Shown here: in pieces, positions 8,674 through 46,277 of the stretch
How the letters are laid out: each line of letters begins with the position of its first letter
Position numbering within the stretch: position 1 is the stretch's first letter
Origin: a bacterium
Lineage (GTDB): Bacteria > Patescibacteriota > Microgenomatia > UBA1406 > GWC2-37-13
Length of the DNA: 50,954 bases
Assembly: GCA_021825445.1 (NCBI GenBank)
Contig: JAKAHA010000006.1
Span: forward strand, 1 to 50,954
Direction: 5' to 3'
Translations under genes and position numbers: made by a program
Notes under the pieces: generated by a model
The model's database searches: none
What the model saw: only the letters and a program-made list of their open reading frames with translations
Told to the model about the DNA's origin: nothing

Positions 8674-8701
8674 ATTACATTTTTAAATTATTTGCTATAA
8701 T
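8674..8701 (+). promoter_or_regulatory. leu operon promoter (extended -10)
   Basis: TGC-TATAAT at 8693-8701 is a strong extended -10. The -35 is weak (ATTACA at 8674-8679, 16-bp spacing). Predicted transcription starts near 8708, about 50 nt before the leader ATG. It is the same TGCTATxAT box seen before the ilv leader. Confidence 0.65.
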
Positions 8702-8713
8702 GATTTTCTAAAT

Positions 8714-8758
8714 ATGATCCTTCGATGTTACTCAGGATCATAGTGAGTTTGTCGAATC
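8714..8758. repeat. Palindromic element in the leu 5' leader
   Basis: ATGATCC...GGATCAT forms a 7-bp stem, followed by AGTGAGTTTGTCGAATC. The same family as the element inside mrdA (3657-3689). It lies in the predicted leader transcript just before the leader peptide ORF and could affect its translation. Confidence 0.5.
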
Positions 8759-8759
8759 T

Positions 8760-8819
8760 ATGAAAAACTTAACCTTAAATTTTGATTTGCTCCTTAACCC
8801 GACTTGGGCGGGAGCATAA
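8760..8819 (+). CDS. leu leader peptide (Leu-rich, 19 residues)
   Basis: ATG-to-TAA ORF with product MKNLTLNFDLLLNPTWAGA. Five of 19 residues are leucine, including three consecutive Leu codons of different type (TTG CTC CTT, 8787-8795). The Leu run overlaps the 5' arm of a possible hairpin (GCTCC 8789-8793 with GGAGC 8811-8815). The end of the ORF carries TGGGCGGG (8805-8812), perfectly complementary to the 5' arm of the terminator that follows. Position before leuA, Leu content and alternative pairings together identify an attenuator leader peptide. There is no sequence homology to E. coli LeuL, so this is an analogy by design. Confidence 0.85.
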   Translation: MKNLTLNFDLLLNPTWAGA

Positions 8820-8846
8820 TTATTTGGTATAAAAGCCAAACAAAGA

Positions 8847-8872
8847 CCCCCGCCCAGGCGGGGTTATTTTTT
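8847..8872 (+). terminator. leu attenuator terminator
   Basis: The CCCCGC/GCGGGG stem (8848-8853 with 8858-8863) is followed by TTATTTTTT. Its 5' arm CCCGCCCA (8849-8856) can instead pair fully with TGGGCGGG at 8805-8812 in the end of the leader ORF, giving mutually exclusive antiterminator and terminator folds. A ribosome stalled on the Leu codons 8787-8795 would leave 8805-8812 free and favour read-through into leuA, 22 bases downstream. A small TTTGG/CCAAA hairpin lies between. Confidence 0.85.
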
Positions 8873-8894: not shown

Positions 8895-10034
8895 ATGAAT
8901 AACAAAATCTATATTTTCGAAACAACTTTGCGAGACGGCGAACAAGTTCCGGGGAGTCAATTAAATACAATCGAGAAGGTACAAATTGCCCGTGAATTGG
9001 AAAAATTAGGTGTTGATGTGATTGAAGCAGGCTTCCCAATCTCCTCCCCCGGAGATTTTAAATCGGTGATTGAAATTTCCAAAGCTGTCAAAGATCCAAT
9101 TGTTTGTGCATTAACTCGTGCAAAAAAAGAAGATATCGATTCTGCAGTTGAGTCTTTAAAATTTGCCAAAAGAAAGAGAATTCATACCGGAATTGGAGCT
9201 TCCGATATTCATATAAAATATAAATTTAATTCCACTCGCGAAAAAATTCTTGCAAAAGGAGTCGAAGCCGTCAAATACGCAAAAAAATTTGTTGAAGATA
9301 TAGAATTTTATGCAGAAGACGCAGGTCGTGCTGATCCAATATTTCTAGCCAAAATGGTTGAGGCAGTAATTATGGCAGGGGCTACCGTTGTTAATATTCC
9401 AGATACAACCGGTTACTGCTTACCCGATGAATTTGGAGCAAAAATAAAATATCTTTTTGATAATGTCAAAAATATTGATCGTGCTATTATTTCTGTTCAT
9501 TGCCATAACGATTTAGGTCTTGCAACTGCAAATACAATAGCAGGAATTAGTAATGGTGCCCGCCAAGTTGAGGTGACGGTCAACGGAATTGGTGAGCGAG
9601 CCGGAAATACTTCTCTTGAAGAAATAGTTATGATTTTGAAAACGCACCGGAAGTTGGGTTTGGAAACGGGAATTCAAACAAAACAAATTTATAAAATAAG
9701 TCAAAAAATCTCCCAAATGATGAAAATGCCAATTCAAGCCAATAAGGCGATCGTTGGAGCTAATGCCTTTGCCCATTCTTCAGGAATTCATCAACATGGC
9801 ATTTTAAAAAATCGCGAAAATTATGAAATCATTGATCCTCGTGATGTTGGGATTGATCAATCATCAATAATTTTGACAGCTAGATCGGGTCGGGCGGCTT
9901 TGAAATTTCGATTGGAAAAAATTGGTTTTAAATTAGATAAACCAGAAATTGATTTAACGTATCAAAAATTTTTGCAACTGGCTGATCAGAAAAAAATGGT
10001 TGATGATCAGGATCTATATTTTTTAATGAAATAA
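8895..10034 (+). CDS. leuA: 2-isopropylmalate synthase, short form
   Basis: Condenses acetyl-CoA with 2-oxoisovalerate, the first committed step to leucine. The TIM-barrel motifs '[11 protein letters not shown]', metal-binding '[13 protein letters not shown]', '[14 protein letters not shown]' and the subdomain '[22 protein letters not shown]...[14 protein letters not shown]' are those of true LeuA rather than homocitrate or citramalate synthase. At 379 residues it ends after the linker and lacks the ~120-residue C-terminal domain that binds leucine in typical ~510-residue enzymes. Allosteric feedback by Leu is therefore probably absent. It is first in leuACDB, six bases before leuC. Confidence 0.92.
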
Positions 10035-11408: not shown

Positions 11409-11989
11409 TTACAAAAATAATTTCAACAGCCATTCCATTACCTCTTAAAAATATTGACACCGATCAAATAATTCCGGCTGAATTTTTAAAAGCAACCACG
11501 AGAAAAAATTTTGGAAAAAAATTATTTTTTGCCTGGCGTAATAAAAAAAATTTTGTTTTAAATAGTAAAAAATTTTTTGGGAAAATACTTGTTGTAGGAT
11601 ATAATTTTGGTTGTGGATCATCTCGTGAACATGCAGTCTGGGCACTGAAAGATTATGGTTTTCAAGTAGTCATATCAAGCTATTTTGCAGACATTTTCAA
11701 AAATAATGCATTAAATAATAGTCTACTACCTATTCAAGTTTCGGAAAAAATATTACAAAAAATATTTAAGATTATTAATAAAGATCCGAAAATAAAAATA
11801 ACAATTGATTTAGCAAATCAACAAATAATAATTCCAGAAGATAATATTAAAGAATATTTTTACATTGATCCATATAAAAAAATCTGTTTAATGAACGGGT
11901 ATGATGATATTGATTATGTTCTAAGTTTAAAAGAACAAATTATTAGTTTTGAACGTGCCTGTCATTCCCGCGAAAGCGGGAATCCATGA
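11405..11989 (+). CDS. leuD: 3-isopropylmalate dehydratase small subunit
   Basis: The swivel-domain subunit that completes the LeuCD active site. '[19 protein letters not shown]', '[17 protein letters not shown]' and '[19 protein letters not shown]' are diagnostic. The native C-terminus has been replaced: the last ~10 residues ([10 protein letters not shown]) and the stop codon are supplied by a GC-rich palindromic element (11960-12020). The family is about 190-200 residues, so the core is complete and the enzyme is probably active. The element also forms the spacer to leuB. Confidence 0.95.
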
Positions 11990-13102: not shown

Positions 13103-13129
13103 TGTCATTCCCGCGAAAGCGGGAATCCA
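13103..13129. repeat. Half copy of the GC-rich palindromic element after leuB
   Basis: TGTCATTCCCGC-gaaa-GCGGGAATCCA matches the left half of the 11960-12020 element exactly. It can form a stable hairpin after the leuB stop, but no T-run follows, so it is not a standard intrinsic terminator. Confidence 0.85.
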
Positions 13130-13593: not shown

Positions 13594-14180
13594 TTAAATT
13601 AATTTATTAATGGGGATATTTTCTTTTTCAATTTGAATCATAATCACAGTTGACGAAACCTTAAATAATTCTGGCAATTGTTCGAGTGGAGGTAAAAACG
13701 AATATTTATATTTATTTTCTATTGCTTTATCTATTTCTAATTTTAATCGACTTCCAGGAACAAGAATACATCCAGCAAAATAATTTGCCTGTCTTTCCAA
13801 GATATAGTTCTCATCATTGGAAATAGTTTCTTGAAATTTTATGTATTCCTCTATAATGCTAAATTTTTTATGTTTAAAATATCTTTCATGCAATATCTTG
13901 TGTCCAATTTCATGGGCAATTGTAAAACGGGCCCTTTCTTCAAATCGATTAAATACTTCATCATCAATAGTTATCTGGTTAAAAGTTGAATTAATAAATC
14001 CATCTATTTTAAAAGTTGTTTTTAATTGTGGAATTGGGACGATTTGAATATTAAGTTTTAGCTCGGCAATTTCTTCGATAGGAACGGGAATTAAATTATC
14101 TTGATTGTTTTGTGAAAGAAATTCTTCAGCAATTTTTTTATGTCTTCGTAATTTAGTTGAGGTGGTTTGTCATTTTCCAT
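13594..14180 (-). pseudogene. ImmA/IrrE-type zinc metallopeptidase, frame interrupted at an A7 run
   Basis: The minus strand encodes an ImmA/IrrE-like peptidase with 'RFTIAHEIGHKILHERYF' (HExxH motif), 'ILERQANYFAGCILVP' (downstream Glu/Asn helix) and the N-terminal 'IAEEFLSQNNQDNLIPVPIEEIAEL'. That frame has no start codon. An ATG at 14180, three bases after the upstream XRE gene, opens MENDKPPQLNYEDIKK in the +1 frame, and the two halves join at a run of seven A (plus-strand T7, 14133-14139). A -1 slip on A-AAA-AAA, or one missing A, restores a continuous protein of about 195 residues. It could be a sequencing indel, a real mutation, or programmed slippage. Such peptidases usually cleave their partner XRE repressor. 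Confidence 0.75.
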
Positions 14181-14183
14181 TTA

Positions 14184-14561
14184 TCATTTTGACTGTTTTC
14201 CATTTATAAGAAAGTCAAGTAATTCCTTAACTTTTTCTTTGCTAATTTTTTTATTGTCTGGTGTTCTCAAAAATGCTGGAAGTAGAGAAAATACTTCAGG
14301 AGCGTTATTTTTAATATCTGTAGGTAATTCCAATCTTGATTCATACGCCAAATCAAAAAAATTTACCCAATCAGATGAACCTCTCTTAAAACCTAAGGCT
14401 ATAGCAAGACCATTTAATTTATCTTCATCTGTAGGGGCAGATAATTTTCCTGTTTCTATTCGTGATATATATGCAGGATCATAACCAAATCTTTTACAAA
14501 AAGATCTTAAGGTTAAGCCATTTTTTGTTCTTTTAATTTTAACTAATTCTGCAAAATTCAT
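14184..14561 (-). CDS. XRE-family transcriptional regulator
   Basis: 125 residues with an N-terminal helix-turn-helix: 'FAELVKIKRTKNGLTLRSFCKRFGYDPAYISRIETGKLSAP'. The C-terminal half is helical and not recognised ('GSSDWVNFFDLAYESR...KVKELLDFLINGK'). It sits directly upstream of an ImmA-type peptidase on the same strand, the arrangement of mobile-element repressor/protease pairs and of some XRE-ImmA toxin-antitoxin modules. It lies between the leu and ilv operons, but no evidence ties it to their control; its most likely target is its own promoter (operator at 14609-14627). Confidence 0.85.
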   Translation of the reverse strand: MNFAELVKIKRTKNGLTLRSFCKRFGYDPAYISRIETGKLSAPTDEDKLNGLAIALGFKRGSSDWVNFFDLAYESRLELPTDIKNNAPEVFSLLPAFLRTPDNKKISKEKVKELLDFLINGKQSK

Positions 14562-14834: not shown

Positions 14835-14863
14835 TTGCAAAATAAAAAATTTTTTGCTATGAT
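14835..14863 (+). promoter_or_regulatory. ilv operon promoter
   Basis: TTGCAA (14835-14840), a 17-bp spacer, and an extended -10 TGC-TATGAT (14855-14863). The predicted start is about 14870, which leaves only some 7 nt before the leader ATG at 14877, so the leader peptide would be translated almost leaderlessly. Confidence 0.8.
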
Positions 14864-14876
14864 GTTTGCTTATCTT

Positions 14877-14939
14877 ATGAAAAATCAAATGTCAATTATT
14901 GTCCTCATTACTCCGCTTAACTGCGGTGTCATGAAGTAA
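14877..14939 (+). CDS. ilv leader peptide with Ile-Ile-Val-Leu-Ile run (20 residues)
   Basis: ATG-to-TAA ORF with product MKNQMSIIVLITPLNCGVMK. Seven of 20 residues are branched-chain amino acids, including five in a row (codons 14895-14909), so starvation for any of Ile, Val or Leu would stall the ribosome there. The run is followed inside the ORF by a CCGC/GCGG hairpin (14913-14916 with 14923-14926) and then by the terminator at 14965-14987. This is the classic multivalent ilv attenuator design. The promoter lies immediately upstream. Confidence 0.88.
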   Translation: MKNQMSIIVLITPLNCGVMK

Positions 14940-14987
14940 TTGGCAAAAACCAATTAGGACACAGACCCCGCTTAAGGCGGGGTTTTT
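14937..14987 (+). terminator. ilv attenuator hairpins and terminator
   Basis: The TAATTGG/CCAATTA hairpin (14937-14956) is followed by terminator stem CCCCGC/GCGGGG (14966-14971 with 14977-14982), loop TTAAG and TTTTT. An alternative fold pairs GTGTC (14926-14930) with GACAC (14958-14962), and GCGG (14923-14926) plus TTAA with CCGC-TTAA (14968-14975), which would break the terminator. Ribosome stalling at 14895-14909 would free the 14917-14930 arm. The ATG of the first structural gene follows the T-run by seven bases. The exact antiterminator is less certain than for leu. Confidence 0.82.
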
Positions 14988-14993
14988 CAATAT

Positions 14994-16175
14994 ATGGACA
15001 TAAAAAAATTAAAATCAAGCCGAACAAAAGTCATGGAATACAGTGCGTTGAGCGAATTGCTTCGAGTAACCGCTGATTTAAAAATTATTTCTTTGGCTGG
15101 AGGACTTCCTGCACCGGAAAGTTTTCCTTTAAAAATAATCAAAAAATTAAATGATTTGGTTTTAAAAAAATATAAAGGTGCTTCTTTTCAATACGGACCT
15201 ACCGACGGTGCCATGGTATTGCGGGAAGAAATCGCACAATGGTTGGTTAAACGTAATATGAAAGTAGTTGCCGAAAATATTGGAGTTACCTCCGGTTCTC
15301 AAGGTGCCCTTGACACAATTGGAAAGATTTTTATTGATGAAGGAGATATTATCGCCGTTGAGTCCCCAACTTATATCGGAGCTATCGATGCATTTGCTCC
15401 ATACAATCCAAAATATGTAGAAATTCAAACCGATGAAGATGGCGTTATTCCCGAATCACTTGACCAAATTTTAAAAACAAAAAAAATAAAATTTGTTTAT
15501 TTAATTCCTACATTTCAAAATCCATCGGGAAAAACAATTCCTTGGGAAAGACGAAAACAAATTGCAAAAATAATCAAGAAATATAATGCTTTATTAATCG
15601 AAGATGATCCATATAATAGTCTTCGATATCGAGGAAAACCTGTTGATCCAATCCAAACTTTGATTCCAAATAATACTGTTTACCTCTGTACTTTTTCAAA
15701 AGTATTGGCTCCAGGACTTCGAATCGGTTTTTATAGTGCACCAAAAGATATTGCTAATTTAATGATGGCCGCCAAACAATCGGTTGATCTTCATACAAAT
15801 AGTTATGGACAATATTTGGCGGCCGAATATTTGAAAACTGGTGACTTAAAAAAGCACCTTCCAAAAATTTTAAAGATATATAAATCGAGGCTGGAAACAA
15901 TGCTTACGTCACTTGATAAATATTTTCCAAATAATTTTAGTTGGACAAAGCCCGAAGGTGGTATGTTTGTATGGGTCACGGGACCTAAAAATTTTGATGC
16001 TGTCAAACTTTATTGGAAGGCTATAAAAAATAATGTAGCTTATGTTCCAGGAACATATTTTTTTGCTACCCCTGGGGTGGGCAAAAACACGATGAGGTTA
16101 AATTTTACCAATGTTTCAGAAATTCAAATTGAGGCAGCTATTAAAAAATTGTCTGAGGTAATAAAATCACTATGA
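14994..16175 (+). CDS. PLP-dependent class I aminotransferase (LysN/ARO8-like)
   Basis: A 393-residue fold-type I aminotransferase. 'SLAGGLPAPESFP', 'QYGPTDGAMVLREEI', 'FQNPSGKTIPWERRK', 'IEDDPYNSLRY' and PLP-lysine block 'LCTFSKVLAPGLRIGF' place it with the 2-aminoadipate/aromatic aminotransferase (MocR-like C-terminal) group. It is first in the ilv operon and overlaps ilvB by ATGA, and no fold-type IV IlvE is present in the window. The simplest inference is that it performs the last transamination to Val, Leu and Ile. Substrate range cannot be read from sequence. Confidence 0.85.
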   Translation: MDIKKLKSSRTKVMEYSALSELLRVTADLKIISLAGGLPAPESFPLKIIKKLNDLVLKKYKGASFQYGPTDGAMVLREEIAQWLVKRNMKVVAENIGVTSGSQGALDTIGKIFIDEGDIIAVESPTYIGAIDAFAPYNPKYVEIQTDEDGVIPESLDQILKTKKIKFVYLIPTFQNPSGKTIPWERRKQIAKIIKKYNALLIEDDPYNSLRYRGKPVDPIQTLIPNNTVYLCTFSKVLAPGLRIGFYSAPKDIANLMMAAKQSVDLHTNSYGQYLAAEYLKTGDLKKHLPKILKIYKSRLETMLTSLDKYFPNNFSWTKPEGGMFVWVTGPKNFDAVKLYWKAIKNNVAYVPGTYFFATPGVGKNTMRLNFTNVSEIQIEAAIKKLSEVIKSL

Positions 16176-17845
16176 AGATAACAGGTAGTCAAGCCGTCAT
16201 TGAATCATTACTCAAAGAAAAAGTAGAGGTAATTTTTGGTTATCCAGGTGGAGCTAATATGCCAATCTATGACGCTTTATATGACTATAAAAATAAAATT
16301 CGCCACATCCTGGTACGTCACGAGCAGGGAGCCACTCATGCTGCTGAAGGCTATGCAAGAATTGCTGGAAAAGCTGGAGTTTGCTTTGCCACGTCAGGTC
16401 CGGGAGCAACTAACTTAGTCACCGGAATTGCCGACGCCCTGATGGACTCTGTCCCTTTGGTTTGTATTACCGGTCAAGTCGCCTCACATTTGATTGGAAC
16501 CGATGCTTTTCAAGAGACCGACGTTATTGGGATTACCGCTCCAATTACAAAATGGAATTATCAAATCACTAAGATTGAGGAAATCCCAGAAGTTTTTGCC
16601 AAGGCATTTTTTATTGCTCAAAATGGTAGACCCGGACCAGTAGTAATTGATATTACTAAAGATGTCCAATTTAAAACTTTTGATTTTAATTATCCAAAAA
16701 AATACCAACTAAAAAAATTAATATCACCAACCCCATCAGTAAAAAATATTAAGCAACTTGCAGAAATTGTTAATTATGCAAAAAAACCATTACTCATTGT
16801 TGGCCATGGAGCTCTTATTTCAAGAGCTAGTCAAATTTTAATTGAATTTATTAAAAAAACTAATATGCCAGTCGCCTCGACTCTTCTTGGTCTTGGAACT
16901 ATCCCAACTAGTCACAAAAATTATGTTGGTATGGTTGGAATGCATGGTAATTATTCTCCAAATGTACTGACTAATAAAGCTGATGTAATTATTGCAGTTG
17001 GTATGAGATTTGATGATAGAGTGACAAGCACAATCTCAACATATGCACCAAATGCAAAAATAATTCACATTGACATTGACGCTTCAGAAATTAATAAAAA
17101 TATAAAAAGTTATTTTGGAATTGTTGGAGACGCAAATATTGTTTTTACAAATGCAATGCCTTTTATCAAAAAAAATGAACATCATGAATGGTTAGATGAA
17201 TTTAAAAAACTTGAAATTCATGCAAAAAAAACTACTAATACACAACCTAAAAAACCGGGAATAACCCAACAGGAAGTGATCTCGATGATTTCAGATAAAA
17301 CAAATGGAGAAGCAATAATTGTTGCTGATGTTGGACAAAATCAAATGTTTGCAGCACGCTACTATCAATATAAAAATCCCAATAGCTATATAACATCAGG
17401 GGGCTTAGGAACAATGGGCTTTGCCCTCCCCGCCTCAATAGGCGTAAAAATCGCTACTCCAAAAACCCAAGTTATTGCCGTGATCGGTGACGGCGGATTT
17501 CAAATGACAATCCAAGAATTGGGAACAATTTTCCAAGAAAAATTGCCTATCAAAATTTTGATTTTAAATAACGAATATTTGGGAATGGTCCGTCAATGGC
17601 AAGAAATGTTTTTTGAAAAAAGATATTCTTTTACTCATTTACTTAATCCTGATTTTATTACAATTTCCAAAGGTTATGGTATTCCCGCAAATTTAGTAAA
17701 AGAAAAAAAAGAACTAAAAAGAGCAATCGATAAATTTTTATCTGACGACGGTCCAACTCTTTTGGAAGTTGTTGTTGAGAAAGAAAATAATATTTTTCCA
17801 ATGATTCCATCAGGGGCAGCTGTTGATGAAATTCGGATTAAATAA
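16172..17845 (+). CDS. ilvB: Acetolactate synthase large (catalytic) subunit
   Basis: ThDP-dependent enzyme forming 2-acetolactate (Val/Leu branch) and 2-aceto-2-hydroxybutyrate (Ile branch). 'EVIFGYPGGANMPIYDAL', the catalytic Glu in 'LVRHEQGATHAAEGYARIAGK', 'GPGATNLVTGIADA', and the ThDP block 'VIGDGGFQMTIQELGTI...ILNNEYLGMVRQWQ' are all present. The 'QNGRPGPVVIDITKDVQ' and 'GMVGMHGN' segments fit biosynthetic AHAS rather than catabolic ALS. 557 residues is normal. ATGA overlap with the aminotransferase upstream; the regulatory subunit follows. Confidence 0.96.
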   Translation: MKITGSQAVIESLLKEKVEVIFGYPGGANMPIYDALYDYKNKIRHILVRHEQGATHAAEGYARIAGKAGVCFATSGPGATNLVTGIADALMDSVPLVCITGQVASHLIGTDAFQETDVIGITAPITKWNYQITKIEEIPEVFAKAFFIAQNGRPGPVVIDITKDVQFKTFDFNYPKKYQLKKLISPTPSVKNIKQLAEIVNYAKKPLLIVGHGALISRASQILIEFIKKTNMPVASTLLGLGTIPTSHKNYVGMVGMHGNYSPNVLTNKADVIIAVGMRFDDRVTSTISTYAPNAKIIHIDIDASEINKNIKSYFGIVGDANIVFTNAMPFIKKNEHHEWLDEFKKLEIHAKKTTNTQPKKPGITQQEVISMISDKTNGEAIIVADVGQNQMFAARYYQYKNPNSYITSGGLGTMGFALPASIGVKIATPKTQVIAVIGDGGFQMTIQELGTIFQEKLPIKILILNNEYLGMVRQWQEMFFEKRYSFTHLLNPDFITISKGYGIPANLVKEKKELKRAIDKFLSDDGPTLLEVVVEKENNIFPMIPSGAAVDEIRIK

Positions 17846-17856
17846 TTATAAATATT

Positions 17857-17879
17857 TATACTGAGCGAAGCCGAAGTAT
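17857..17879. repeat. Short palindrome providing the ilvN start region
   Basis: ATACT...AGTAT arms around GAGCGAAGCCGA, a common dispersed palindrome type. The last two bases of the element are the first two of the ilvN ATG (17878-17880). If transcribed, the hairpin would place the start codon at the foot of the stem. Confidence 0.6.
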
Positions 17880-18102
17880 GAAAAAAACATTTACCATGAT
17901 CGTTGAAAATCAACCTGGCGTTCTTTACCGCTTGGTTAATGTTTTTTATAAAAGAAAAATTAATATCTCTACTGTTAATGTTTTCGAATTAAATAATGCA
18001 AAGACTTCGCAGGTTTCAATAACAGTAAATGTTTCCGAAGATGTATTGATAAACATTAGTAAACAGATTTATAAAATTATAGAAGTTATATCTGTGAAAT
18101 AA
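17878..18102 (+). CDS. ilvN: Acetolactate synthase small (regulatory) subunit, ACT domain only
   Basis: 74 residues consisting of one ACT domain: 'TFTMIVENQPGVLYRLVNVFYKRKINISTVNV' with the N/G residues at the effector-binding turn. It is as short as E. coli IlvM and lacks the C-terminal domain of the ~160-residue IlvH type. It probably binds and activates IlvB and may mediate valine feedback; that is family knowledge, not visible here. The ATG overlaps a palindromic repeat (17857-17879). Four bases separate its stop from ilvA. Confidence 0.85.
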   Translation: MKKTFTMIVENQPGVLYRLVNVFYKRKINISTVNVFELNNAKTSQVSITVNVSEDVLINISKQIYKIIEVISVK

Positions 18103-18106
18103 TTTT

Positions 18107-19348
18107 ATGATCAATGTAAAAACGATAGATGAGGCGGCAACAAAACTTGAGGGGGTTATAAGAGAAACTCCTCTCCAATATTCTGATCGCCTCTCAAAAA
18201 GATATGGGGCAAAAATATATTTCAAAAGGGAAGATCTCCAAGAGATCCGTTCCTATAAAATCCGCGGCGCTTATAACAAAATGATTCATTTGACGGATGC
18301 TGAAAAAAAACAAGGAGTTGTCACAGCTTCCGCTGGTAATCATGCTCAAGGAGTAGCTCTTTCTTGTATGAAATTAAAAATAAAGGGTGTAATTTTTATG
18401 CCTATCGTTACCCCTCTCCAAAAAATTGATCGGGTCAAGTATTTTGGTGACGGTTATGTCCAGATAAAATTAGTCGGTCAAAGTTATGATGAGGCGACTC
18501 TCGCCGCAAAAACTTATTCTCACGAAACTGGTGCCGTTTACATTCCTGCTTTTGATGATGAACTGGTGATCAATGGTCAGGGAACTATTGGAAAAGAAAT
18601 TTATGATGAAACAAATGGAAAGATTGATTTTGTTATCGTTCCAATTGGTGGTGGTGGTCTAATCTCTGGACTTTCAACTTATTTAAAGGAAAAAAATAAA
18701 AACATAAAAATATTAGGGGTTGAGTCAACTGGGGCAGCTTCAATGTCTAAGTCATTAAAACTTGGAAAAGTCTCTTCGTTAAAAAAAGTTGATACTTTTT
18801 GCGATGGTGTTGCCGTTAAGACACCGGGAAATATTACTTTTCCTATTTGCCAAAAAAATATTGAATCGGTCGTTGTTATTGAAGAAGGGCAAGTTGCCAA
18901 AACAGTCATTGATCTATATCAAAATGAGGGAATTATTGCCGAAACTTCAGGAGCTCTTTCCGTCTCAGCTCTTGAAAATATAAAGAATAAAATTAAAAAT
19001 AAAACTGTTGTTTGTATTATCTCTGGTGGAAATAATGATCTTCTTCGCTATCCTGAAATCATGGAGCGAAGCCTTGTTTACCAAGGAAAAAAATATTATT
19101 TTTTAGTCGAATTTGCCCAAAAACCGGGACAACTTAAAAAATTCTTAAATCATGTCCTTGGACCAACTGACGATATTGTTCTTTTTGAATATGTGAAGAA
19201 AAATAACAAGGAACAGGGTCCTGCTTTAGTTGGATTAGAATTAAAAGATAAAAATAACTTGGATTTGATTTTAGAAAAAATGAAAGAGTTTAGTTTTAAT
19301 TATAAAATGATCGAGGATAAAGAGTTGTTATATAGTTATTTGATTTAA
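18107..19348 (+). CDS. ilvA: Threonine deaminase (threonine ammonia-lyase, biosynthetic)
   Basis: PLP enzyme converting threonine to 2-oxobutyrate, the entry to isoleucine. The PLP lysine lies in 'EIRSYKIRGAYNKM', the phosphate loop is 'VPIGGGGLISGLS', and 'SAGNHAQGVALSC' is the Asn-loop. The C-terminal ~85 residues ('KYYFLVEFAQKPGQLKKFLNHVLGP...') form one ACT-like domain. At 413 residues it is the Bacillus-type single-ACT enzyme rather than the two-ACT E. coli form. Isoleucine control is therefore likely. It is inside the ilv operon. Confidence 0.95.
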   Translation: MINVKTIDEAATKLEGVIRETPLQYSDRLSKRYGAKIYFKREDLQEIRSYKIRGAYNKMIHLTDAEKKQGVVTASAGNHAQGVALSCMKLKIKGVIFMPIVTPLQKIDRVKYFGDGYVQIKLVGQSYDEATLAAKTYSHETGAVYIPAFDDELVINGQGTIGKEIYDETNGKIDFVIVPIGGGGLISGLSTYLKEKNKNIKILGVESTGAASMSKSLKLGKVSSLKKVDTFCDGVAVKTPGNITFPICQKNIESVVVIEEGQVAKTVIDLYQNEGIIAETSGALSVSALENIKNKIKNKTVVCIISGGNNDLLRYPEIMERSLVYQGKKYYFLVEFAQKPGQLKKFLNHVLGPTDDIVLFEYVKKNNKEQGPALVGLELKDKNNLDLILEKMKEFSFNYKMIEDKELLYSYLI

Positions 19349-19367: not shown

Positions 19368-19685
19368 ATGAAAATAGATACAAAAACTATATCTTGGAAA
19401 AAAATTAAAGGACGTAAAGGTACTTCAGTCAAACATCTACAAAGAGATAAAAAAAGAAATTTTCAGATTGATCTTATGAGGCTTGACCCTAATTTAACAT
19501 TTAATCAACACTCCCATCCTGACATAGAGTGGATTTATATATTAAAAGGCGGTTTTTCTGATCACCGCGGAAATTTTAAACGAGGTGATTTTATTTTAAA
19601 TAAACTTGGGTCAATTCATACAACAAAAACCGGTGCAGAGGGGGCAGAGTTTATCGTTTGCTGGTGTGGAAAAGTGACTTATTAG
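19368..19685 (+). CDS. Cupin-domain protein (ChrR-like)
   Basis: A 105-residue small beta-barrel. 'NQHSHPDIEWIYILKGGFSDHRGNFKRGDFILNKLGSIHTTKTGAEGAEFIVCW' has the cupin metal ligands (HxH, E, then H) and resembles the cupin half of ChrR-type anti-sigma factors. It lies between ilvA and ilvD with 19- and 3-base gaps, so it is co-expressed with isoleucine/valine synthesis. A metal or oxidant-sensing role near the Fe-S dehydratase IlvD is a guess; no enzymatic function is shown. Confidence 0.75.
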   Translation: MKIDTKTISWKKIKGRKGTSVKHLQRDKKRNFQIDLMRLDPNLTFNQHSHPDIEWIYILKGGFSDHRGNFKRGDFILNKLGSIHTTKTGAEGAEFIVCWCGKVTY

Positions 19686-19688
19686 CAT

Positions 19689-21443
19689 ATGAAAAATAAT
19701 AATTTTATTAATAAGGGAATTGATGCTGTCCAAAAAAACGGAAGTAAAATCTTGACCCGTGGACTTCATACCTTGCCGGCCATTTCTTTAATGATTGCCG
19801 CCGGAGTCCTAAAACATGTTTCTGATAAAAATAAGCCCTTTATTACCGTTGTTAATTCCTATACTACCCATATCCCAGGTCACACACATCTGCAATTTTT
19901 AGGTGAAAAATTAGTGGTTGCTTTAAAGAAAAAGGGTTTTAACGTTTGGTACTGTAATATCGGCGGGGCCGTCGATGATGGGATTGCCATGGGGCATTTT
20001 GGTATGAAGTACTCCCTCCCCTCAAGGGAATTAATCACTGATCAAATAGAGACAGTTATAGCCGCTCACCCCTGTGACGGTTGGATTGGGATTGGTAACT
20101 GTGACAAAATTGTTCCTGGAATGCTTAATGCTATGGTCAGATTAAATATCCCGTCAGTGTATGTCTCTGGTGGACCAATGCTTTCAGGTCAAAATAATAC
20201 TGATTTAATATCCGTGTTTGAAGGTGTTGGTCAACGCACCGCTGGTAAAATATCTGAAGAAAAGCTAGTAAAACTGACAGAAACCGCTTGCCGAACTTGT
20301 GGTAGTTGTGCTGGTATGTTTACGGCCAATTCGATGAACTGTTTGGCTGAGGTAATTGGTCTAGCGTTGACTGGAAATGGGTCAATTCCTGCCGCTCGAT
20401 GGACCAATAAAGATAAAGGAGAATACGAAATTAATCCCGATAGAATAAAATTAGTTGAAAAAACTGCAGAAACCATCAGTGATTTGATAAAAAATAAAGT
20501 TAACCCACTAGATATTGTCACAAAAGATTCCATTGATAACGCGTTTATTTTGGATTTGGCAATGGGCGGTTCAACTAATACCGTTCTTCACACTTTAGCT
20601 TTGGCACATGAGGCAGGAATCAAATACCCGTTAAAAAGAATAAAATACCTTTCTGACAAAACACCTAATGTTTGTAAAGTTTCCCCTTCCCGACCAGAAG
20701 TTCATATTGAAGATGTTAATCGAGTAGGTGGAATTCCGGCAATACTAAAGGCAATTTATAAATATTCAAAATCACCTATCCATCTTTCGGCAAAAACTGT
20801 AGCTGGTCAAACGATCAAAGAATATATAATGGATGCACCAAGCCCCGATAACGACGTTATTCGAATCGGCAAAAATTCCTTTTCTCAAAAAGGTGGTTTA
20901 GCAATTCTTTATGGAAATTTAGCTCCGGATGGTTCGGTTTTAAAAACTGCAGGGATTGATTCATCAATGATGAAATTTTTAGGTAAGGCAATATGTTTTG
21001 ACTCACAAGAAGAAGCGTTAAATGCAATTTTAAAAAGAAAGATAAAAGATGATCATGTAGTTGTTATAAGATATGAAGGTCCAAAAGGCGGACCCGGCAT
21101 GCAGGAAATGCTTTCCCCCACTTCGGCTTTAAAAGGACTTGGGGTGAAAGCTGCTCTAATTACTGATGGCAGATTTTCTGGAGGAACTCGCGGACTATGT
21201 ATTGGTCATATCTCTCCTGAGGCAGCCTCCGGTGGACCAATTGCTATAATCAATAACGGGGATACGATAAAGATTGATGTTAACACCGGTACAATTGACC
21301 TGCTAATATCTAAAAAAGAATTCAAAAATCGAATAAAAAAAATTAAACCATTTACACCAAAAATAACTCGTGGATGGTTGGGTCGATATTCGAAACACGT
21401 GATGAGTGCAAATTATGGTGCGATCATGGACAATGTAATTTGA
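19689..21443 (+). CDS. ilvD: Dihydroxy-acid dehydratase
   Basis: Dehydrates dihydroxy-isovalerate and dihydroxy-methylvalerate to the 2-oxo acids. Fe-S and Mg ligands are visible in '[11 protein letters not shown]' and '[20 protein letters not shown]'; the C-terminal '[22 protein letters not shown]' is invariant in the family. The first loop reads '[13 protein letters not shown]' like E. coli IlvD, with Gly where [2Fe-2S] plant-type enzymes have Cys, so an oxygen-sensitive [4Fe-4S] cluster is expected. 584 residues lies between the two common sizes; the N-terminus ('[18 protein letters not shown]') is unlike most homologues. Confidence 0.95.
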
Positions 21444-21494: not shown

Positions 21495-21878
21495 ATGAAT
21501 ACAATAAATGTTGTTTCAACAAAAAACGCTCCTGCGGTCGTTGGTCCATATTCTCAAGCATTAGAAGTTAATGGGTTTATTTTTTGCTCTGGGCAAATTG
21601 GTATTGACCCAAAAACAAAAAATTTAGTTGATGGAATCGAAAATCAAACAAGGCAAACACTAAACAACATCAACGAAGTTGTTAGGGCTTCTGGAAGTAA
21701 CCTACGTCACATATTAAAAACAACTATTTATTTATCTGATATGAAGAATTACAATTTAGTTAATAAAATTTACGGAGAATACTTTAACAGTCATAAACCG
21801 GCTCGCGCAACTGTTGAAGTTTCTCGATTACCAAAAGATTGTTTAATTGAAATTGAAGCGATTGCAGTGGTTAAATAA
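21495..21878 (+). CDS. ridA: RidA family reactive intermediate deaminase
   Basis: 127-residue YjgF/YER057c/UK114 protein that hydrolyses the 2-aminoacrylate and 2-aminocrotonate enamines released by PLP enzymes such as IlvA. 'VVGPYSQALEVNGFIFCSGQIGIDPKT', 'TIYLSDMKNYNLVNKIYGEYF' and 'ARATVEVSRLPKDCLIEIEAIAV' with the substrate-binding Arg are diagnostic. Its place in an operon with ilvA fits this role directly. Confidence 0.96.
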   Translation: MNTINVVSTKNAPAVVGPYSQALEVNGFIFCSGQIGIDPKTKNLVDGIENQTRQTLNNINEVVRASGSNLRHILKTTIYLSDMKNYNLVNKIYGEYFNSHKPARATVEVSRLPKDCLIEIEAIAVVK

Positions 21879-21985: not shown

Positions 21986-23023
21986 ATGGCCAAAATAAAT
22001 TTCGGAGGAGTGGTGGAGAATGTTGTTACACGATCAGAGTTTTCCTTAAAAAAAGCTAGGGAAATTTTAAAAAATGAAACAATCGCGGTTGTTGGCTATG
22101 GTGTTCAAGGTCCCGCTCAAGCCCTAAATCTCCGCGATAATGGATTTAATGTAATAGTCGGGCAAAGAAAACCGTCAAAGTCATGGGATAAGGCTGTTGC
22201 CGATAAATGGATTCCCGATAAAACCTTATTTGAAGTTGAGGAAGCTGTCCAAAAAGGAACAATAATCGCTTATTTACTATCAGACGCCGGACAAATTGCG
22301 AGTTGGAAAACAGTTAAAAAAAATCTTACCTTTGGTAAAGCATTGTATTTTTCCCATGGATTTGGCATTACTTTTTCGCGTGAAACTGGAATCGTTCCGT
22401 CGAAAGACATTGATGTGATTTTGATTGCTCCAAAAGGATCAGGAAGAACGGTCAGGAAACTATTTTTGGAGGGAAAAGGAATCAATGCCTCATATGCCGT
22501 TTACCAAGACGCAACAAAAAAAGCTAAAGAGCGATGCCTGGCAATGGGAATTGGGGTTGGAGCTGGTTATCTTTTTGAAACAACTTTTAAAAATGAAGTT
22601 TATTCTGATTTAACCGGAGAAAGAGGAGTTCTAATGGGTGCAATTGCAGGAATAATGGAGGCTCAATACGATCTTTTCAGAAAAAAAGGTCATTCACCGT
22701 CGGAGGCATTTAATGAAACAGTTGAGGAATTAACTCAAAGCTTAATTCCACTAATTTCCGAGAAAGGAATGGACTGGATGTATGCAAACTGTTCAACTAC
22801 TGCTCAACGTGGAGCACTTGATTGGAAAGGAAAATTTCGTAAAGCTGTTGAGCCAGTCTTTGAAAAGCTATATAAGTCAGTTGCCTCGGGCCACGAAGCC
22901 AAAATAGTTATTAAAGCCAATAGTAAATCTGATTATCGAAAAAAACTTGAAAAGGAATTGGCTGAAATTCATAACTGCGAAATGTGGAGGACTGGTGCCA
23001 AAGTGCGAGAGCTTAGACCATAA
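21986..23023 (+). CDS. ilvC: Ketol-acid reductoisomerase
   Basis: NAD(P)H and Mg-dependent isomeroreductase of the Val/Ile/Leu pathway. The Rossmann block is 'TIAVVGYGVQGPAQALNLRDNGFNVIVGQRK'; catalytic acids lie in 'YSDLTGERGVLMGAIAGIMEAQYD' and 'LTQSLIPLISEKGMDW'; the C-terminus is 'NCEMWRTGAKVRELRP'. 345 residues is the short class I length, but the cofactor loop 'GQRKPSKSWDKAVADKW' resembles Bacteroidetes and fungal enzymes more than the usual proteobacterial ones, suggesting acquisition by transfer (to be tested by a tree). It overlaps radC tail-to-tail by 11 bp. Confidence 0.95.
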   Translation: MAKINFGGVVENVVTRSEFSLKKAREILKNETIAVVGYGVQGPAQALNLRDNGFNVIVGQRKPSKSWDKAVADKWIPDKTLFEVEEAVQKGTIIAYLLSDAGQIASWKTVKKNLTFGKALYFSHGFGITFSRETGIVPSKDIDVILIAPKGSGRTVRKLFLEGKGINASYAVYQDATKKAKERCLAMGIGVGAGYLFETTFKNEVYSDLTGERGVLMGAIAGIMEAQYDLFRKKGHSPSEAFNETVEELTQSLIPLISEKGMDWMYANCSTTAQRGALDWKGKFRKAVEPVFEKLYKSVASGHEAKIVIKANSKSDYRKKLEKELAEIHNCEMWRTGAKVRELRP

Positions 23024-44881: not shown

Positions 44882-46050
44882 AAAAATATATTTTTACCAT
44901 AACCGCAGTTTTGTTTGCAACTATCAGTCTGCTTGTTTTTGTGCGAGTAAGTTTTGCCCAGGAGTCTTCTGAAGACAAAGCAAAGAAATTTGGAGTGACC
45001 TTTCCTGTTTTGGAATTGGGCAACTGTACTTCCGTATCGGAATGTCGGACATATTGTGAAGATCAGACACATAGGGATGCTTGTGTAAATTTTGCCAAAA
45101 AAAAGGGATTCTATAAAGAAGAAGAAATAAATTCAAAAAGACAGTCGTTGATGCAAGCGGCCAAAAACGAGCTTGGGTGTAATTTGGAAGAATCATGTAA
45201 GGCAATCTGTCAACAAGAAGCGAATTTTGAAAAGTGTCGGGCTTTTGCTGAAAAAAACGGATTGGAAGAAGGTCAAAAAAACCCGGGTGATAAAAAAGTA
45301 TTGGAAAAAGCAAAAGAAATACTTGGTTGTGATTCGCCATCAAGCTGTAAAGCGGTTTGTGAACAAGAATCCAATCGGGAGAAATGTTCGGAATTTGCAA
45401 AGCAGACAGGATTGGAGGGGGGTAAGCGTCGTGTTGGTCCCGGGGGTTGCGACTCTGAAGATAGCTGTAAACTATATTGCGAAAAAAACCAAGAAGAATG
45501 TAGAAAATTTGGGGGCGGTCCGCCTTCTGATGATAAAAATAGAAAAAAAGGCCCGGGTGGCTGTGACTCCGAGGAAAGTTGTAAAAAGTATTGTAGCGAA
45601 CATCCAAATGAATGTAAGGGTGAAAACAAAGATGTCAGGGATATTAAAAATGACGGAAAACCTGGAGATGATGATAAGTTAAGGCAGATGGGTCCCGGGG
45701 GATGCAACAGCGAAGAGTCATGCAAAAAATATTGCCAAGAGCATCCAAATGAATGTGGAAATAAAGATGAACCCAACCAGGAAAGGTTGCAAAGAAACCT
45801 AAACGAAGGTCCTCCGGAGGATTTTTGTAAAACTAATCCTGATGAATGCCGTAGAAAAGAAATAGAAAAAGAAAGAAAACAATTTCAACCTGAAGAGCGA
45901 AGAATGGAAAATAAGCCACCCACAGAAAACCGTCCACCGGAAAACCGTATAGAAAATAATAATGAACTCCAACCTCCAGAAGATGTAAAAGGCGTTTCAA
46001 CTGAAATGGCTTTCTTTAATAAGATTATAAACTTCTTGCTTGGAAAATAA
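44878..46050 (+). CDS. Secreted Cys-repeat protein
   Basis: 390 residues: signal peptide (about 1-25) and at least six repeats of the form G-C-x-S-x-x-S/E-C-K-x-x-C-x-x-(x)n-C. The first three are about 40 residues long and end in 'CxxFAxxxGL' ('CTSVSECRTYCEDQTHRDAC', 'CNLEESCKAICQQEANFEKC', 'CDSPSSCKAVCEQESNREKC'). The later ones shorten to about 20 residues ('GGCDSEESCKKYCSEHPNEC'). The tail is Pro/Glu/Arg-rich and ends in a hydrophobic 'EMAFFNKIINFLLG'. Each repeat has four cysteines, suggesting stacked disulfide modules outside the cell. Function unknown; similar proteins are frequent in CPR genomes. Confidence 0.7.
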   Translation: MKKYIFTITAVLFATISLLVFVRVSFAQESSEDKAKKFGVTFPVLELGNCTSVSECRTYCEDQTHRDACVNFAKKKGFYKEEEINSKRQSLMQAAKNELGCNLEESCKAICQQEANFEKCRAFAEKNGLEEGQKNPGDKKVLEKAKEILGCDSPSSCKAVCEQESNREKCSEFAKQTGLEGGKRRVGPGGCDSEDSCKLYCEKNQEECRKFGGGPPSDDKNRKKGPGGCDSEESCKKYCSEHPNECKGENKDVRDIKNDGKPGDDDKLRQMGPGGCNSEESCKKYCQEHPNECGNKDEPNQERLQRNLNEGPPEDFCKTNPDECRRKEIEKERKQFQPEERRMENKPPTENRPPENRIENNNELQPPEDVKGVSTEMAFFNKIINFLLGK

Positions 46051-46277
46051 TTTTATATTGTTTATCCTTTGATCCCTTTTTCGACCCCGATCACTACAAA
46101 ATAATTTCAAGATATTTGAGAAATAATAATGGTGAGGTTAGGAAGATTTGAATTGAGAGCTAAAGCTATTCGAGGTTAAAACAAATATGAGAGCGAATTT
46201 AATTTCTTTATATTTATTACAGAGGTAATTTAACGTAATTATTACTTATCTATTTTAGAAATGTTTAGATTTCATAA
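46051..46277. other. 227-bp region without a supported gene
   Basis: Between the Cys-repeat gene and the convergent HEPN-like operon. It contains an ORF-like remnant ('DPFFDPDHYKIISRYLRNNNGEVRKI') with no start, and at 46128-46170 a stretch (TGGTGAGG...AGATTTGAATTGA) weakly like the 3' end of the tmRNA gene at 48160-48190. No RNA gene or terminator is convincing. Confidence 0.4.

Follow-up and report, generated by a model that had tools for sequence, protein, structure and literature searches.

Introduction

In Escherichia coli and other enterobacteria, the ilvGMEDA and leuABCD operons are governed by attenuators in which a leader peptide, multivalent for Ile/Val/Leu at ilv and rich in Leu at leu, is combined with mutually exclusive hairpins and a terminator placed ahead of the first gene. 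The locus described here, from a Patescibacteriota genome of 1.02 Mb, resembles these systems in its multivalent and Leu leaders, its exclusive hairpins and its terminator before the first gene. It differs from them in its near-leaderless open reading frame (ORF) without a Shine-Dalgarno sequence, its short leader (~115 nt), its five consecutive control codons, its phylum and its gene order.

The ilvBNC attenuator of Corynebacterium glutamicum (ilvB-II motif) carries a leader rich in branched-chain residues, MTIIRLVVVTARRLP, one nucleotide from the transcription start (PMC11857589, PMC10272879). It shares with the present locus a short leader of this composition near the transcript start, together with a terminator, an antiterminator and an anti-antiterminator; however, that leader is part of a 292-bp region upstream of ilvB, whereas the one examined here lies ~120 nt before an aminotransferase gene and has no Rfam match. 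The his attenuators of Firmicutes (PMC9413887) similarly place a His leader and a terminator/antiterminator before his operons, with three to five consecutive His codons against two adjacent His codons in the leaders of the family studied here. Leader-peptide attenuation of ilvB is regarded as widespread (PMC10272879) and is known in Actinobacteria, with one contrary Streptomyces result cited in the same source (PMC1262725). Descriptions of Patescibacteria usually state that amino-acid synthesis is absent (PMC11665869), and no report of attenuation or leader peptides in Patescibacteria/CPR was found in the open-access literature searched. The mechanism proposed below is classical, while the host group is new for attenuation as far as that search shows; the breadth of the phenomenon comprises four pathways and near-leaderless leaders.

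Organization of the ilv and leu operons

The window, meaning the whole stretch of 50,954 nucleotides that was analysed, belongs to a genome placed in the Microgenomates branch of Patescibacteria, with Candidatus Roizmanbacteria among its relatives. The ilv operon lies on the forward strand and begins with a class I/II PLP aminotransferase gene (14994..16175, Pfam PF00155), which presumably encodes its branched-chain transaminase and whose place is taken by ilvE in many relatives. It is followed by ilvB, the acetolactate synthase large subunit (16172..17845, Pfam), a short ilvN-like regulatory subunit recognized from its sequence and conserved immediately 3' of ilvB (17878..18103), ilvA, threonine dehydratase (18107..19348, Pfam PALP and Thr_dehydrat_C), a cupin protein gene (19368-19685), ilvD, dihydroxy-acid dehydratase (19689..21443, Pfam), ridA (21495-21878) and ilvC, ketol-acid reductoisomerase (21986..23023, Pfam). 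Upstream of the ilv operon, leuA, leuC, leuD, leuB and a DUF2000 gene stand behind a separate Leu leader. Identical 27-nt palindromic repeats, TGTCATTCCCGCGAAAGCGGGAATCCA, occur after leuD (11960-11986) and after leuB (13103-13129).

Between the two operons, positions 13594-14561 of the reverse strand hold an HTH regulator gene and then an ORF resembling a fragment of an ImmA/IrrE-type protein, divergent from the ilv operon and set in a neighbourhood that differs among relatives. The divergent HTH gene (14184-14561) was considered as an ilv regulator and rejected, being absent beside the ilv operon in the mapped relatives.

Anatomy of the two leaders

The ilv leader runs in the order promoter, leader ORF (whose end can form a hairpin), a small hairpin in the middle, terminator and aminotransferase gene. 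Direct reading of the forward strand confirmed the promoter of the original prediction at 14835-14863, with a -35 element TTGCAA (14835-14840), a 17-nt spacer and a TG-extended -10 element TATGAT (14858-14863). Its score by itself is weak (9/12, equalled by many chance sites); the arrangement TTGCA(A)-17-TATAAT recurs at the same position in most relatives. The predicted 20-codon ORF and the terminator behind it were likewise read directly. The ORF, MKNQMSIIVLITPLNCGVMK, spans 14877..14939, from an ATG at 14877, 13 nt beyond the -10 box and without a Shine-Dalgarno sequence, to a TAA at 14937-14939, and has 22 counterparts among the ilv leaders of the family. Its control codons ATT ATT GTC CTC ATT, encoding Ile-Ile-Val-Leu-Ile, occupy 14895..14909. 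The intrinsic terminator (14966..14987) pairs CCCCGC (14966-14971) with GCGGGG (14977-14982) and ends in a T5 run (14983-14987). Its placement directly before the first gene was correctly predicted; the gap between the end of the T run at 14987 and the ATG at 14994 is six bases rather than seven.

The leu leader is the putative Leu-only partner switch, with the ORF MKNLTLNFDLLLNPTWAGA at 8760..8819 of the forward strand. Within 8805..8863, an antiterminator pairs TGGGCGGG (8805-8812) with CCCGCCCA (8849-8856), and a terminator pairs CCCCGC with GCGGGG (8848-8863), followed by a T-rich tail and then leuA at 8895. The leader ATG at 8760 lies 58 nt beyond the -10 element TATAAT (8696-8701), a distance apparently due to an insert that resembles a repeat (CCTTCGATG..TCAGGATCATAGTGAGTTTGTCGAA, 8714-8759) and has come between them. 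The ATG at 8714, counterpart of the start in the relative L122, now meets a stop after 9 codons.

Conservation in the family

ilvC is present in 23 of 72 family genomes, and 23 ilv and eight leu operon starts were read from 23 genomes in 11 genera. Uncounted were the loci whose operon start lies beyond a contig end (L034, L041, L042, L043, L048 and L053) and the divergent ilvC of genome G007. A leader ORF followed by a terminator occurs at 31/31 readable starts, Ile/Val/Leu-rich at the 23 ilv operons and Leu-rich at the eight leu operons; 29 of the GC-rich terminators were placed by rule and two by eye (L035 ilv and L045 ilv), and some of the leader ORFs were chosen by eye. The proposed search of relatives for leader ORFs rich in branched-chain residues thus succeeded at all readable ilv starts in the genus and the family, and close relatives retaining the operon have lost neither the codon run nor the terminator at any such start. 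The peptides vary in sequence and remain constant in residue class. Family ilv operons begin with the aminotransferase gene, ilvE or, once, ilvB.

The leu operon is separate in the genus and fused with ilv in several other genera. Where leu genes lie inside the operon, the ilv leaders contain more Leu codons (mean 2.5 vs 1.4 per 8-residue block, p = 0.0025, kinship-uncorrected). Together with the Leu-rich leaders at leuA, this supports the predicted pairing of a Leu switch with a switch for all three branched-chain amino acids. The control block in the window contains three Ile codons against one Val and one Leu codon, and sensing of all three amino acids is plausible, with a weighting toward Ile in the window.

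In one genus-mate (L055, genome G031), ilvB, ilvC, ilvA and ilvD are fragmented or carry stops while the ilv leader is intact, and in another (L056, genome G021) ilvC and ilvD are fragments; the ilv pathway seems to be decaying in both.

As assigned by script, the leader ATG lies 5-14 nt (median 12) past the -10 box in 30/31 leaders, the exception being the leu leader of the window, mis-assigned by the script. With the ATG so close to the -10 box, the RNA 5' end would therefore comprise only a few nucleotides. No Shine-Dalgarno-like stretch was found upstream of the leader ATG in any of the 31 leaders, and these ORFs are probably translated in a near-leaderless manner, for which ilvL of C. glutamicum offers a precedent (PMC11857589).

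Alternative folds and simulated switching

The ilv leader of the window folds at -39.1 kcal/mol, compared with -22.2 +/- 3.3 for shuffled sequences (z -5.2). Its segments 1 and 2 form an anti-antiterminator hairpin (14890..14949) that contains both the control codons and the end of the ORF, with a folding energy of -21.9 kcal/mol (z -5.95). Segments 2 and 3 form the antiterminator (14923..14971), in which GCGG (14923-14926) pairs with CCGC (14968-14971), an assignment derived from folds, stall simulation and the swap test described below; it is assisted by GTGTC/GACAC and AATTGG/CCAATT pairings. Segments 3 and 4 form the terminator. Two pairings had been predicted to break the terminator, and GCGG/CCGC does so; GTGTC (14926-14930) with GACAC (14958-14962) can also form, but coexists with the terminator in a 79-nt fold.

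Switching was assessed by a stall simulation in which the A site was moved codon by codon with a fixed ribosome footprint and equilibrium folds, and the pairing of the terminator 5' arm with upstream RNA was taken as the readout. Averaged over the 31 leaders, antiterminator pairing was 0.83 when the ribosome sat on the middle control codon, against 0.51 for dinucleotide shuffles, and only 0.14 when it had reached the stop codon. In the window ilv leader, pairing reached 6-7 on a 0-9 scale across I-I-V-L-I; its value was 0.72 for the middle codon and dropped to 0.11 once the stop was reached. Single leaders ranged from clear to not significant against shuffles (window 10/200, L120 139/200). The ribosome-free leader already favours the antiterminator in L036, L033, L035 and L121, and does not in the window. 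In these computations, the antiterminator excludes the terminator and is favoured by stalling on the control codons.

The compensatory-change check that had been suggested for the two folds favoured the native arms: in an arm-swap test own arms paired better than swapped ones, and 0/5000 permutations were as good for either the 3:4 or the 2:3 pairing, the relatedness of the sequences being ignored. MAFFT with RNAalifold, applied to 22 ilv leaders, returned no consensus structure or pair, probably owing to sliding of the arms in the alignment, and the model obtained from that alignment was sequence-only. Judged from the swap test and from the other helix sequences found in other families, uncorrected for kinship, the pairing of the segments appears to be kept by compensating changes.

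These results bear on the likeliest alternative, in which the leader would affect translation, or would encode a small functional peptide, and termination would not be its target. Codon changes at Streptomyces ilvB left regulation unaltered (cited in PMC1262725), giving this reading a precedent in Actinobacteria, and the T run stops only six bases ahead of the first gene. Nevertheless, T-run terminators are present in all leaders, the co-adaptation of the arms extends to both folds, and the peptides are not conserved past their residue class, which leaves this explanation improbable.

Occurrence in other families, phyla and operons

A fixed rule (an ATG ORF of 10-30 codons, 5 of 7 residues Ile/Leu/Val, and a terminator 8-48 nt after the stop) was applied to further loci. 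In family loci (~1 Mb of strand sequence), 24 of its matches lay at most 330 nt upstream of an ilv or leu gene and one lay elsewhere. Loci from other families of the class yielded nine matches in that upstream position and none elsewhere, and those from other classes of the phylum yielded none upstream and two elsewhere. Reading of eight loci from other Patescibacteria classes found no leaders ahead of their ilv operons. Among 76 ilvC loci outside Patescibacteria, mostly Bacteroidota, the rule gave 22 matches upstream and 4 elsewhere; these 22 leaders (loci L131-L206) are Ile/Val/Leu-rich ORFs with terminators upstream of ilvD or ilvE in Bacteroidota and some others. The rule is thus specific, and leaders of this type are common ahead of Bacteroidota ilv operons too. 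The Bacteroidota ilvD- and ilvE-first leaders resemble the present one in placing an Ile/Val/Leu-rich ORF and a terminator just before the ilv operon, and differ from it in leader sequence.

Families f18 and f25 of the class have the same layout with other helix sequences (TTTGGGAGA/TCTCCCAAA and GGGAGGC/GCCTCTC), and the f25 operons that can be read from their start are mostly ilvD-first, like many Bacteroidota ones. A quick IlvC tree places the Patescibacteria proteins in several groups among others. The ilv genes were likely transferred horizontally, and the Patescibacteria switch may have come along with them.

Other amino-acid operons carry comparable leaders. HisB occurs in 13/72 family genomes, the host genome included, and the his loci of eight genomes have a terminator together with a leader in which His codons stand side by side; in the four his leaders that were folded, antiterminator pairing peaks on His-His. 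The his locus of the host genome shows the order His-His leader, terminator, tRNA-His (GTG) and hisG-like gene (L244:7818-8177; G000:C10, ~45817-46176), with a second tRNA-His on another contig (C5). TrpC exceeds the cut-off in 8/72 family genomes, and three trp loci (L259, L260 and L261) have Trp leaders (IWQSWQT, SWRAICW and IWQSWHT) and terminators ahead of trpE-like genes. The control residues match the pathway, with Leu in the leu leaders, His-His in those of his operons and Trp in those of trp operons.

This correspondence weighs against a second alternative, a ligand- or tRNA-binding RNA (a T-box, or a ppGpp or amino-acid riboswitch) in which the ORF would be incidental. The leader is long and structured, and elsewhere ppGpp riboswitches occur on some ilvB genes and T-boxes on some amino-acid operons (PMC10272879, PMC9413887). 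However, what is conserved is codon content, and residue identity tracks the operon. A search for Rfam amino-acid leader, T-box and riboswitch families gave none at gathering score in the window or seven related loci, and none fitting at loose thresholds; below threshold, the Trp_leader and Phe_leader attenuators appear in the company of unrelated sRNAs. Such an RNA is accordingly very improbable. Finally, a plain intrinsic terminator belonging to some upstream transcript, combined with a chance ORF, for which it was counted that terminator-like sites in the whole region are no commoner than chance, is the least credible reading and is refuted by conservation: the terminator is on the forward strand and cannot be that of the adjoining upstream gene (14184-14561), because that gene is on the other strand, and the leader recurs at every readable ilv or leu operon start while the upstream genes change among relatives, with a chance of only ~1.2% per locus of a comparable ORF in a shuffled leader.

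Proposed mechanism and significance

With its conserved anatomy, mutually exclusive folds, co-adapted arms and a choice of residues fitted to the pathway, the ilv leader is very probably a ribosome-mediated transcription attenuator of the trp/ilv type. We infer translation of the leader, a dependence of termination on charged tRNA, and coupling of transcription to translation in these cells. RNA polymerase would start ~7 nt after 14863, so that a ribosome would enter the leader ORF almost at the RNA 5' end. Under a shortage of Ile (or of Val or Leu), the ribosome would stall on 14895-14909 and cover segment 1; segment 2 (the GCGG region) would then pair with segment 3 (the CCCCGC arm), no terminator would form and the operon would be transcribed. 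With ample branched-chain amino acids, the ribosome would reach the stop at 14937 and mask segment 2, leaving segment 3 to pair with segment 4, and transcription would end just before the aminotransferase gene. The Leu-only twin at 8760-8868 would work likewise for leuACDB.

Taken more broadly, the balance of evidence leans toward near-leaderless ribosome-mediated attenuation as a general control of ilv, leu, his and trp operons throughout one entire class of Patescibacteria; under this broad reading, their small ribosomes would therefore maintain the coupling of transcription to translation. A subset of Patescibacteria retains the branched-chain pathway and appears to tune its ilv, His and Trp operons by attenuation. 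Since an attenuation switch works only with a ribosome close behind RNA polymerase, coupling, amino-acid sensing and starts without a Shine-Dalgarno sequence are made testable, from sequence and reporters, in mostly uncultured bacteria.
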